DNA of 35,678 nt, taken from contig CAMWJC010000030.1 of NCBI GenBank assembly GCA_947174495.1, positions 1 to 35,678 of the forward strand, in the 5' to 3' direction. Numbering within the stretch: position 1 is the stretch's first letter; each line of letters starts with the position of its first letter. Below are positions 28,397 to 35,678 of the stretch, piece by piece. The notes under the pieces are model-generated. The model did no database searches. It was not told the DNA's origin and was given only the letters and a program-made list of their open reading frames with translations. Made by a program: the position numbers and the translations under genes. The stretch comes from an uncultured Lachnospiraceae bacterium. GTDB lineage: Bacteria; Bacillota; Clostridia; Lachnospirales; Lachnospiraceae.

Positions 28397-29545
28397 ATGT
28401 TGAAAGAAATCAGTCCAGAAATAGATTTTATTGCGGAAGGTATTGCCTTACTGCATCATTTAGGCACAGAGAAGAATTTCTGTGACTTAAAGGAATCTCT
28501 CAGCAAGAAATATGACATAACATTCCAGGCAGGAGTTCAAAAATTCGAACTATTAACCAGAATTGAGCAGAATGCGCAAAATATATTTCAAGAAGAAATG
28601 ACAGAAATCCAATATTATTTTTCCACATCCGGTTCTGGCGAATCCGACACGCTGAACCTAAACTGTGCCGGCATGCTTGCACTTTTATGGAAAAATTATC
28701 CGGAAGATTTTAAAACCACAGATGACATCCGCTGTTTCTTACAGGGACTTTCCGAAGAAGAATACTGTGAAAAATTCGGCGAAGGACTGCAATGCTACAA
28801 TGACATCCTTACAGACGAAAGTATGAAAGCGAAAATAGATAATCCTCTTGCCATCATTTCCTATTTAATGAAAATGGAAATCTCAAACGATGAAAAATGG
28901 AAGCTTCAGAAAATCTTCTGCGACAGAAGCGAGCATCAGGAAAAGATACTTGCCTTACTTGATAAGGCAATCTCTGTCCTGACAGCCTTCCGTCCGGAAC
29001 TCGAAGAACTGACTGCACGGTTTTGCCGCTATTGGAAACAGACATTACAAGATCGCAGTATCACTTCTTATCTGCGGGAGACTGCTGCTATCATAGAGTT
29101 CGGTGACAATCCCCTGGGTTTTCGCCTGACTCCCTCTATTATCAAGTGCCACTCCTTTGCATTAAGCGCGGATATGGATGAAGACAGCAACTATCAATCA
29201 CCTGACACCTGTATCGCCGGTATCCTTTTTGACGACGATTTTCAAATATGGATAAGCCGCACAAAAGATGAAAATACTTATATGGCTTATGCCACACAGG
29301 TTTTGAAGCTATTATCCGATAAAAGCAAGTTTGAAATCCTCTCCTATATCCGTGACAAGGAATCCTATGGAAGTGAACTTGCCAGACACCTGAATCTTAC
29401 AACCCCAACCGTTTCCCATCACATGAACGCGCTGATTGCCGCAGAACTTGTGACGATTAAGCGGCAGGAGAATCGCGTCTATTATCTCTCAAATAAAGAA
29501 AAAATAGACGAAGTCCTCCGCTATTGTAGGCGGATATTGACGTAG
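28397..29545 (+). CDS. ArsR-type winged-helix regulator with a long N-terminal domain
   Basis: The last 85 or so residues of this 382-residue protein (about 297-382) form an ArsR/SmtB-like winged helix: QVLKLLSDKSKFEILSYIRD, then SYGSELARHLNLTTPTVSHH as the helix-turn-helix and the wing VTIKRQENRVYYLS. The first 290 residues form a mostly helical region I cannot assign. It is far larger than a normal ArsR protein (about 100 residues) and is presumably the ligand-sensing or dimerisation part. No classic metal-binding CxC motif is seen in the DNA-binding helix. It is likely the repressor acting on the palindromes at 27001-27082 and so controls itself and the MFS gene. The ribosome site is AGGAGCCGGG. 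Confidence 0.85.
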   Translation: MLKEISPEIDFIAEGIALLHHLGTEKNFCDLKESLSKKYDITFQAGVQKFELLTRIEQNAQNIFQEEMTEIQYYFSTSGSGESDTLNLNCAGMLALLWKNYPEDFKTTDDIRCFLQGLSEEEYCEKFGEGLQCYNDILTDESMKAKIDNPLAIISYLMKMEISNDEKWKLQKIFCDRSEHQEKILALLDKAISVLTAFRPELEELTARFCRYWKQTLQDRSITSYLRETAAIIEFGDNPLGFRLTPSIIKCHSFALSADMDEDSNYQSPDTCIAGILFDDDFQIWISRTKDENTYMAYATQVLKLLSDKSKFEILSYIRDKESYGSELARHLNLTTPTVSHHMNALIAAELVTIKRQENRVYYLSNKEKIDEVLRYCRRILT

Positions 29546-29681
29546 AGGGACGGAACCTGATTTTAAAACCGTATTCTCAATTAAGGCCAGTGTCTTCTGC
29601 TGATTAACCAGTTCCTCACAAACTGCCATTTCAGAATCCTTAAAACAGCAAAAAACAAATAAAATTTAGTAAAATAAGGCA

Positions 29682-29710
29682 TTGATTTTTTTCTGCTGAT
29701 TGCATATAAT
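29682..29710 (+). promoter_or_regulatory. sigma-A promoter of the type III toxin-antitoxin locus
   Basis: TTGATT (29682-29687), 17-bp spacer, perfect TATAAT (29705-29710). Transcription should begin near 29717, at the foot of the hairpin that precedes the antitoxin repeats. The 29546-29681 stretch before it holds no clear gene; a short minus-strand open frame there is discussed in the findings. Confidence 0.8.
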
Positions 29711-29716
29711 AAAAGC

Positions 29717-29840
29717 ACAGATAGGAATATCTGTAAAGCGGTTAGAGCGTCCAGTTAAAATGCTCGTTTAAAAGCGGTTAGATTGTCCAATCAAAACAAT
29801 CGATTAACAGCAGTGGGTGGATCTACTCCACCCACTTTTT
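29717..29840 (+). ncRNA. toxI: ToxI-like antitoxin RNA with two 36-nt repeats
   Basis: The RNA begins with a 7-bp hairpin (29717-29734, GGAA loop). Two directly adjacent 36-nt repeats follow, 29735-29770 and 29771-29806, identical at 28 of 36 positions. In both, positions 11-16 pair with positions 26-31: GAGCGT with ATGCTC (one G-U) in the first, GATTGT with ACAATC in the second. Five of the eight differences fall in this stem and preserve pairing, which is direct covariation support for the fold. A terminator follows. The repeat length equals the 36-nt ToxI repeat of Pectobacterium ToxIN. In such systems the toxin cuts the precursor into repeats that form pseudoknots and then inhibit it. Only two full repeats are present, fewer than in the classic locus (5.5). 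Confidence 0.85.
29812..29840 (+). terminator. intrinsic terminator between antitoxin RNA and toxin gene
   Basis: A perfect 10-bp GC-rich stem (29812-29821 with 29827-29836), loop TCTAC, then a run of T. As in known type III loci, it lets most transcripts end after the antitoxin repeats, with limited read-through into the toxin gene 18 nt downstream. Confidence 0.88.
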
Positions 29841-29857
29841 ACTTCTTTGGAGGCTCT

Positions 29858-30379
29858 ATGGACTGGTACGTTGTCGATAAAAAATACATAAATTACTTAA
29901 CACAATTTGATTCTCGTGTAGGATATGTGGAATATGGGGATCGGCTGAAGCTCCATATTGGCATTCTGCTTACTATTGGAACTTTTCACTATTATGTTCC
30001 GATATCCTCCGCAAAACCCAAACACCAGAAAATGTCCAACAGTCTGGATTTCCACAAACTTCAGGATGTATCCAATGGATATCTTTATGCAGTACTAAAT
30101 ATCAACAATATGATCCCCGTTCCTGATAACTGTGTCACACAATTAAAATACAATCAGGTGGATAATTTCCGTTCATTCAAAGGTGAAAAGGAAAAAACAG
30201 ACTATATCTATCTTCTCCAAAAAGAAAAATCCCTGATTGACACAGTTCAGGACACTCTGCAGAGCAAGGCTCTGAAATTATATCAGAAGTGTATAGCTAA
30301 ACCAGACTCTTCCTTGGCATCAAGATGCTGCGATTTCAAAATGCTTGAAGCGAAATGCACTTCTTATCCCGATACATAA
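29858..30379 (+). CDS. toxN: type III toxin-antitoxin system ToxN/AbiQ family endoribonuclease
   Basis: The 173-residue product matches the ToxN/AbiQ toxin family in length (about 170) and pattern. It starts MDWYVVDKKYINYLTQFD, like the YxxxxKYIxYLxxFD start of the family. It then has HIGILLTIGTFHYYVPISS with the conserved S-S-x-K stretch (Ser50, Ser51, Lys53), aligned with the T-S-P-K active-site residues I recall for Pectobacterium ToxN. The later LNINNMIPVPDN corresponds to the family's LNxxxMIPV motif. The toxin cleaves RNA and is held inactive by the ToxI RNA; ToxIN and AbiQ loci give abortive phage defence. The start is the ATG at 29858 behind TTTGGAGG; the frame is open further upstream, but that reading would run through the terminator and antitoxin. 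Confidence 0.92.
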   Translation: MDWYVVDKKYINYLTQFDSRVGYVEYGDRLKLHIGILLTIGTFHYYVPISSAKPKHQKMSNSLDFHKLQDVSNGYLYAVLNINNMIPVPDNCVTQLKYNQVDNFRSFKGEKEKTDYIYLLQKEKSLIDTVQDTLQSKALKLYQKCIAKPDSSLASRCCDFKMLEAKCTSYPDT

Positions 30380-30412
30380 ATAAATCTGCTTCACAAAAGA
30401 TCATTCTGCATG

Positions 30413-34925: not shown

Positions 34926-35504
34926 TTATTCTCTTTTTAACCTGTCATACAGTACTTCTTCTTCTCCTGTCGAAAGAATTACCTTCTTCTTATACAATAA
35001 AGTCCATGATGTCTGGTTCTTCGTATAGTCCATTTTATCCTGAGGAAAAAATGAGCGGCAGAAATATCTTCCTTCCTCTCCATTCCCTGCCAGAAATAAA
35101 AATATATTTCTTCCTTCTGCATTATTTTTCATAATATAATCTGCTTTTATAACCGAATAAGCATTCTGTTTTCGGTTGTACTTAAAGATTGTATCATTGC
35201 TGTCAATCATACTTTCCAGAAGCGGGAACATGTCTATTCTGTCTGCAATCTTATAATACAGATCAGACGACTGAATCTGTTCTGCTGTTATCCTTCGCTC
35301 TTTTATTGCATCAAATATTTTCCCCCTATCATGGACTAACTCTGGTCTGTCTGTCAAATATTGAAGTCCCATTAAATGAAAGCATTCCTTTTTATCAAAA
35401 TATATCTGTAACGAAACAGATATATTTTTTCTTCCCAGTACCAAATGATATTCCTTATCCAACAGTTCACCGAAAGCCTCCACGCAATCATACACATTAT
35501 GCAT
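34926..35504 (-). CDS. PBECR4-like nuclease-fold domain protein
   Basis: The 192-residue protein matches what I recall of the PBECR4 domain (phage Barnase-EndoU-ColicinE5/D-RelE-like nuclease group). Near residue 36 it has FDKKECFHLMGLQYLTD, the F-x-HLxGLxxL signature; then KIFDAIKERRITAEQIQSSD and an IADRIDMFPLLESMI helix. A beta-rich second half contains GRNIFLFLAGN and a Lys/Arg-rich end. The proposed function is RNA cleavage or a degenerate nuclease fold; these domains are frequent in phage and mobile-element genes. There is no partner antitoxin gene next to it. The ribosome site is AGAGGTAA and the gene has its own terminator. Confidence 0.65.
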   Translation of the reverse strand: MHNVYDCVEAFGELLDKEYHLVLGRKNISVSLQIYFDKKECFHLMGLQYLTDRPELVHDRGKIFDAIKERRITAEQIQSSDLYYKIADRIDMFPLLESMIDSNDTIFKYNRKQNAYSVIKADYIMKNNAEGRNIFLFLAGNGEEGRYFCRSFFPQDKMDYTKNQTSWTLLYKKKVILSTGEEEVLYDRLKRE

Positions 35505-35530: not shown

Positions 35531-35564
35531 CAGGAAAAGCTCTGCTTTCGCAGAGCTTTTCCTG
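35531..35564 (-). terminator. strong hairpin with GAAA tetraloop, probable terminator
   Basis: A perfect 15-bp inverted repeat (35531-35545 with 35550-35564). On the minus strand the loop is the stable tetraloop GAAA and the 3' arm ends in TTTTCC, so it looks like the terminator of a minus-strand gene or RNA whose body lies at 35565-35678 and beyond. It is 27 nt upstream of the PBECR4-like start codon. Confidence 0.65.
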
Positions 35565-35678
35565 ACGTTTTCTTTCAACTGCATGTGCAGTCTAGCCAGA
35601 ATGCGGTAAACGCAAAACCCATCCAAAGCTCGTAAGGCACTGCCCTCTGGCACAACACCTTATGTCAACGCTTTGACT

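Follow-up and report, generated by a model that had tools for sequence, protein, structure and literature searches.

Do two short tandem repeats upstream of a gene for a 173-residue protein in an uncultured Lachnospiraceae bacterium form, together with this gene, a complete type III toxin–antitoxin locus, and do the repeats act as a folded RNA? The locus lies in the window analyzed here, a 35,678-nucleotide stretch of DNA (contig CAMWJC010000030.1 of assembly GCA_947174495.1). Judging by its sequence, region 29682–30379 of the window is a type III toxin–antitoxin locus, complete and intact, that belongs to the ToxIN/AbiQ family. It adds a member to an already known kind of system and does not represent a new kind. 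The first-pass annotation had listed a promoter, a 5′ hairpin, two 36-nt repeats, a terminator, and a ToxN/AbiQ-like gene in the canonical order, and all of these elements are present (Table 1).

Table 1. Features of the toxin–antitoxin locus, window coordinates.
Feature	Position	Strand	Basis
−35 box TTGATT	29682..29687	+	Promoter scan; same kind of box by eye 5′ of the array in close relatives
−10 box TATAAT	29705..29710	+	Promoter scan; box reads TATAAT or TATACT in the majority of close relatives
5′ hairpin, 7 bp, GGAA loop, ACAGATA-GGAA-TATCTGT	29717..29734	+	Sequence; pair counts in 19 loci; 26-array survey
Antitoxin unit 1, AAGCGG register	29736..29771	+	Stem-2 strands 29745–29749 / 29761–29765 (GAGCG/UGCUC)
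Antitoxin unit 2	29772..29807	+	Stem-2 strands 29781–29785 / 29797–29801 (GAUUG/CAAUC)
Intrinsic terminator, 10-pair stem 29812–29836, then T-run	29812..29841	+	Between antitoxin and toxin
toxN ribosome-binding site GGAGG	29849..29853	+	Sequence
toxN, 173-aa ToxN/AbiQ family toxin	ATG 29858 to stop 30379	+	Active-site equivalents K31, S50, S51, K53
Module, approximate extent	29657..30384	+	DNA similarity to 14 close loci ends near these edges

Toxin Protein

The assignment of the 173-residue protein to ToxN/AbiQ, proposed earlier without database searches, was borne out by profile search: the protein matches the Pfam family ToxN_toxin (PF13958) over its full length (1.4e-56, 191.5 bits with a cut-off of 25), as well as the AbiQ model of PADLOC (6.8e-34), and the NCBIfam scan yielded one irrelevant match only (0.12). 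Solved chains matching the protein are AbiQ (4glk, 4e-12) and ToxN (4ato, 9.5e-12; 2xd0, 2.9e-7; 7d8o, 1.1e-5). The TenpIN family was considered and rejected: the NCBIfam search with the window protein, up to E 1, gave no match to the TenpIN model NF047358; this model does match one of the other loci (L152).

The active site of ToxN from Pectobacterium atrosepticum, as described in PMC5086642, includes Tyr29, K33, T52, S53, and K55. In the pairwise alignment with 2xd0, K33, T52, S53, and K55 stand opposite K31, S50, S51, and K53 of the window protein, respectively, and Y29 falls in a gap. Two alignments, of 20 and of 22 proteins, were built without seven more distant loci, two of them omitted on account of stops in their references; S51 and K53 are invariant in both, and S50 exceeds 90% in the former and not in the latter. 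The predicted endoribonuclease active-site residues by which ToxIN toxins are recognized are present in the window ToxN, save for the gap at Y29.

The assembly of the window (completeness 78%) contains one ToxN copy. Matches to PF13958 at E 0.001 or better were found in 19 out of 37 genomes of the genus and in 63 out of 397 genomes of the family.

Promoter, Terminator, and Conservation of the Layout

With each species represented by a single genome, 36 ToxN loci were retrieved. Sixteen relatives (L002–L015, L017, L018) share 63% or more identity with the window protein over all or nearly all of its length; two or three units precede toxN in each of them, and a promoter and a terminator-like hairpin are seen by eye in all 16, the T-run being poor in L008. 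One further locus, L016, has only 22 bases of upstream DNA. The first-pass annotation had called the two-unit array very short; two units are indeed what the window holds, but this number is common in the clade: L002–L007, 86–89% identical, share the two-unit layout with the window.

Tandem short repeats located 5′ of the toxin gene behind a promoter, and a Rho-independent terminator between the repeats and toxN, both of which mark ToxIN loci, are found in the window. The promoter, TTGATT-17-TATAAT (29682–29710), has 10 out of 12 consensus matches. The region contains four promoter-like sites, compared to 3.4 in shuffles, and the window promoter is not significant alone; it is recognized by its conserved place rather than by its score, similar boxes being seen by eye at the same place in relatives of the window locus. 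Terminator-type sites number two in the region, versus 0.5 expected.

Antitoxin Units and Their Folding

The tandem 36-nt repeats (29735–29770 and 29771–29806) are 78% identical. The pairs claimed to covary between them, 13/29, 14/28, and 15/27 in the register of the first-pass annotation, had been read correctly. The conclusion drawn from these pairs, that the repeats act as folded RNA, stands in one part, the stem being kept in 39 out of 39 units, and needs correction in the other: instead of a free hairpin, the paired element in the window units is probably stem 2 of a ToxI-type (H-type) pseudoknot. Loss of the repeats or disruption of the stem in relatives had been named in advance as contrary evidence; neither was seen among the 16 relatives with an array region or among the 39 sampled units, but L001 has no unit in its 99 upstream bases at a contig end.

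The covariation alignment comprised 39 units from 17 loci, without viral contigs and without L003–L005 and L087, which have the same arrays as L002. In stem 2, which consists of five pairs, 100% of cells are paired across 36 distinct units, and four out of five pairs show two-sided changes. All 30 two-sided cells of the whole tested structure fall in stem 2, compared to a mean of 8.3 in shuffled alignments and at most 6 in slid versions of the structure; the count of pairs with two-sided changes (four) was reached by 22 out of 500 shuffles.

A pseudoknot is likely because of homology to ToxI-type antitoxins, with two possible registers for stem 1. In the AbiQ register (columns 5–17 and 6–16) there are two invariant G–C pairs, with 97.2% of cells formed and no covariation; in the second register (columns 5–8 with 18–21) there are four pairs with wobbles, 97.9% formed, with one-sided changes only. 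L052, a different ToxN locus, does show two-sided changes of stem 1 among the units of its single array (AAGUG/UACUU and UAAGC/GCUUA). For several arrays, the automatic pseudoknot finder proposed a spurious stem 1 or none at all, and we relied on it solely for L052 and the length of the AbiQ stem.

Rfam gave no match at the gathering score at the locus, and its only two matches in region 29500–30000 (E 4.6 and 5.5) are far below their gathering scores. The suggestion that the RNA may be undescribed thus agrees with Rfam, but candidate Clostridiales RNAs located 5′ of ToxN are already reported in PMC8040213. These are HMP2_3156 (106 bp) and HMP2_5421 (68 bp) of Fremin and Bhatt (2021), structured RNAs lying, as in the window, directly 5′ of ToxN and proposed as ToxI (PMC8040213); they were compared with the window by description only.

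In two distant ToxN relatives from Treponema (L033, L035), no tandem repeat is seen by eye 5′ of toxN; they share the stretch GAGTGGTCCTGC...GTGGAC at this place, possibly a single-unit antitoxin.

Comparison With Known Systems

The best solved relative, AbiQ/antiQ from Lactococcus lactis (4glk, 4e-12), has the same order of repeats, terminator, and toxin as the window, and its unit likewise begins with AAGCGGUG. However, the copy from pCV56A (L103) has three near-identical units, as opposed to two differing units in the window; stem 1 of AbiQ has four pairs, compared to two certain pairs in the window clade; and, in contrast to the window with its 5′ hairpin, L103 has no hairpin 5–10 bases after the −10 box, only one weak stem overlapping the promoter.

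ToxIN from P. atrosepticum (2xd0) and Bacillus thuringiensis (4ato) belong by sequence to the ToxN family, like the window locus, and the Pectobacterium unit, as given in PMC5086642, is also 36 nt long. The Pectobacterium array, though, is described as 5.5 units with a single variable base (PMC5086642; PMC3475682), whereas the window has two units with different stems and a 5′ hairpin.

CptIN from Eubacterium rectale and relatives resembles the window locus in its type III layout and in being found in gut Clostridia. Assignment to CptIN was rejected: its units are reported to be 45 nt long (PMC4627078), and the window units are 36-nt, not approximately 45-nt; the nearest solved relatives are AbiQ and ToxN, the solved CptIN structure not being among the four chains that match the window protein at E up to 1.

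Neighboring Units With Different Stems

In 20 distinct arrays, excluding the single-unit finds L019 and L095, only one out of 28 pairs of neighboring units (in L015) has the same stem-2 letters; the outer units of three-unit arrays have the same letters in six out of eight cases. This difference may go back to one or two old events that were kept, because the arrays are related by descent, and ToxN arrays as a whole do not show it: the same stem is repeated in AbiQ (L103) and, among others, in L040, L063, and L084.

A need for different stems in correct folding was considered as an explanation, using nested folding with a program that ignores pseudoknots. In the natural window array, cross-unit pairing is 0; it reaches 0.30 if both units are given the stem of unit 1, and if both are given the stem of unit 2, native pairing collapses to 0.03–0.06. 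When the two stems are swapped, and hence still different, native pairing falls as well (0.10, 0.19) with no cross pairing, and thus the effect is not due to cross pairing alone. The native stem probability is low in several natural three-unit arrays, and cross pairing in the array and in the precursor, respectively, is 0.51 and 0.92 in L102, 0.67 and 0.24 in L013, and 0.37 and 0.01 in L017; it is 0.56 in AbiQ. As the folding tests are mixed to negative across natural arrays, and L015 has identical stems, this explanation was rejected, and the different neighboring stems are kept as a pattern, not as an explanation.

Orphan Units and Decayed Copies

The covariance model of the unit matches five out of 37 genomes of the genus at E 0.1 (G724 only at 0.07), five out of 397 genomes of the family at E 0.01, and three out of 392 genomes of the order at E 0.001; each count includes the window's own genome, and the family and order scans used strict filters. 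Three unit sites have no toxN detectable by tblastn, within 10 kb in G742 and within about 3 kb in G264 and G353; all three genomes carry ToxN genes elsewhere. The site in G742 (C19:39403-39569, − strand; L138/L114) is antitoxin-only, with a promoter, a hairpin, two units, and a terminator; a G–C pair of its hairpin is changed to A–U, i.e., compensated, and the first unit has a damaged stem 1. One intact unit with a terminator and no visible promoter is found in G264:C41. In G353 (C32:22559-22593; L152 1350–2350, − strand), a TenpN gene (NF047358, 3.4e-45) is directly followed by one unit with a terminator; as this ToxI-class unit begins at the TenpIN-family stop codon, two type III families are joined in this locus. 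These orphan units may be remnants, and the phage pseudo-ToxI case described in PMC3475682 shows that such RNAs can protect. An exact pattern scan for orphan arrays in viral contigs returned nine contigs, all of them already known, by their contig names, as toxN carriers.

Split or stop-bearing ToxN copies were observed in G264:C119, G722:C36, G715:C44, and G393:C23, a sign of frequent decay. In L001, 88% identical to the window, 99 bases are available upstream at the contig end (L001 1–99); the terminator is present, and no antitoxin unit is found in the 53 bases before it, where another hairpin lies. The missing unit is either an artefact of the contig end or a lost array.

Could the window locus itself be decayed, i.e., recognizable but no longer working? 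Its array of only two units, diverged to 78% identity, would fit such a fate, as would the decay among relatives, with stop-bearing or partial ToxN frames, arrays with no toxin nearby, and the toxin of L001 with no unit. However, ToxN in the window is full-length with conserved active-site residues, all stem-2 pairs are intact via compensatory changes, the two-unit layout recurs in L002–L007 at 86–89% identity, and two units satisfy the requirement of at least 1.8 repeats given for AbiQ in PMC5086642, all of which makes decay of this copy very improbable.

5′ Hairpin

The 7-bp hairpin, noted in the first-pass annotation as an extra element at the probable 5′ end, is present and conserved. Its first base is the seventh after the −10 box, the usual distance of a transcription start, so that it begins at the predicted start. 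The pairs were counted in 19 loci (18 distinct sequences, four from viral contigs; L017, which has no hairpin, was left out): 95.8% of cells are paired, versus 91.5% in shuffles, and four out of eight pairs show two-sided changes, with 10 such cells versus 3.3 in shuffles, further pair types being no more numerous than in shuffles (6 versus 6.0). L017 is the only one of the 16 relatives without the hairpin, which is therefore not essential to the module.

Leaders were surveyed in 26 arrays, taken to represent those in which a repeat could be detected, the array starts of L022 and L065 being shifted by hand by one period. A stem of six or more pairs occurs in the leader region of 17 out of 26 arrays, compared to 7.0 expected from shuffles and 7 out of 26 in control windows further upstream; some of the 17 leader stems lie apart from the array. 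Twenty-three of the 26 arrays have a −10 box, some choices being weak (L080), and in 16 of these 23 a hairpin of five or more pairs starts at the fifth to tenth base after it, with 3.1 expected; the hairpins of L044, L053, and L081 lie within the first unit, and without these the count is 13 out of 23. No hairpin starts at this distance in L017, L022, L031, L084, AbiQ (L103), L104, and L105; in L022, L031, and L105, one is visible by eye elsewhere in the leader. Other ToxN arrays thus carry a 5′ hairpin more often than shuffled sequence, an excess that is only suggestive since the distance range was set after several leaders had been seen.

Word searches within PMC5086642, PMC8860590, and PMC4627078 found no mention of a leader hairpin; part of the wider literature search was weakened by ToxIN being matched as toxin. 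In PMC5772629 and PMC3475682, the same searches found one hairpin and one stem-loop, respectively, each of them the terminator, and no leader hairpin.

What the hairpin does is suggested by its position. In Bacillus, 5′ roadblocks strongly stabilize RNA, an effect explained by RNase J1 in PMC3997798, and for this reason a cap against 5′ decay is the favored role: most likely, the hairpin shields the precursor from 5′-end decay and so sets the rate of antitoxin loss. It might instead belong to the first unit as an element of its processing or structure, e.g., replacing ToxN cutting at the 5′ joint. In many relatives, the inter-unit AAAA joint is not kept before unit 1 (TGTGCAGCGG, TGTATAGCGG, and similar), and thus ToxN may not cut there. 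However, the window and L006 have AAAG at this joint, and the sequence-unrelated hairpins seen close to the predicted transcription start in further ToxN arrays suggest a general role of the 5′ end; a processing function is possible but doubtful, and we prefer the cap.

Genomic Setting

Fourteen close loci (no re-fetched copy counted twice; some of the 14 near-identical among themselves) resemble the window at the DNA level from 29643–29661 (29676 in L097, at the start of its contig) to 30380–30384. The module is flanked in the window by genes for an ArsR-type regulator and a PhzF-like protein, and lies between ordinary chromosomal genes, with no terminase or portal neighbors; the 15 other ORFs scanned include just one phage-like item, a PBECR4-domain protein at a distance of 4.5 kb. 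This protein (PF18813) is encoded at 34926–35504, adjoined at the contig end by a drum RNA (RF02958, 81.7 bits, 35560–35673, − strand).

In L001–L005, L007, L039, L087 (from the contig of L002), and the viral L094–L100, the module has a complete or partial terminase-large gene at its flank. All of these except L001 and L097, which are cut off by the contig end, have a flanking portal gene as well. In L004, the portal (PF04860, 3.2e-129) and terminase-large (PF20441, 8.1e-51) genes are both on the strand opposite to the module, and hence late phage transcription would run against toxIN. The toxIN locus lies between the portal and terminase-large genes in L004 (1424–5121), as well as in L002, L003, L005, L094, L096, L098, and L099. 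The neighbors of L006, 89% identical, are AraC-type and aldolase genes, and neither a terminase-large nor a portal gene was found in the flanking DNA examined for L008–L020, L101, and L102. Copies with prophage flanks and with plain flanks both exist; therefore, the same module resides in prophages and in the plain chromosome. One prophage toxIN had already been noted in PMC5086642. None of the ToxN relatives in the phage collection (two) and in 123 plasmid records reaches 60% identity, and the comparison with empty sites in the genus gave weak partial matches of the flanks only, 66–67% over at most 373 bases.

These settings raise the question whether the main role is addiction, that is, stabilization of a carrier element, rather than phage defense. 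Close relatives adjoin phage genes, more distant ToxN relatives reside in the 123 plasmid records, and some type III systems are described as stabilizing plasmids (PMC5086642), yet the genes on either side of the window copy are ordinary chromosomal ones, with the PBECR4-domain protein, 4.5 kb off, as the sole phage-like ORF out of 15; we consider addiction as the main role rather unlikely, and prefer defense.

Proposed Mechanism

The best explanation, and a highly probable one, is a chromosomal ToxIN-family type III toxin–antitoxin locus of the Lachnospiraceae bacterium, working in the way described for type III systems, for which we follow PMC5086642. One promoter would give a precursor consisting of the hairpin, two 36-nt pseudoknot units, and the terminator, which most transcripts would not pass; read-through past it would provide ToxN, the presumed endoribonuclease, and such terminator leakage is known for the family (PMC4147584). 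The A-rich joints between units would be where ToxN cuts the precursor, and the products would then sequester ToxN in a closed RNA–protein ring. Toxicity, cutting, ring assembly, terminator leakage, and phage defense are attributed to the window locus by analogy with its family. Transcription shut-off by phage would be the trigger of toxin release: once a phage stops host transcription, the antitoxin would no longer be replaced, and free ToxN would cut RNA and stop phage production.

Several of the patterns described above could be joined in a wider reading. Many ToxN-family precursors of Bacillota would begin with a start-site hairpin, sequence-unrelated between arrays, that caps them against 5′-end decay and thereby determines how long the antitoxin lasts and at what point the toxin is triggered; the differing stems of the window clade would prevent unit loss by slippage or cross-joint pairing; and solitary units, one of them behind tenpN, would act in trans against prophage ToxN. 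Taken as a whole, this reading is unlikely.

To our knowledge, the release of type III toxins is not fully settled, and the lifetime of the antitoxin plays a central part in it. If unrelated arrays share a hairpin at the very point where their antitoxin transcripts begin, this would be a simple control element. The prophage and chromosomal settings, together with the orphan units, suggest an exchange of the module between phages and Lachnospiraceae of the gut.
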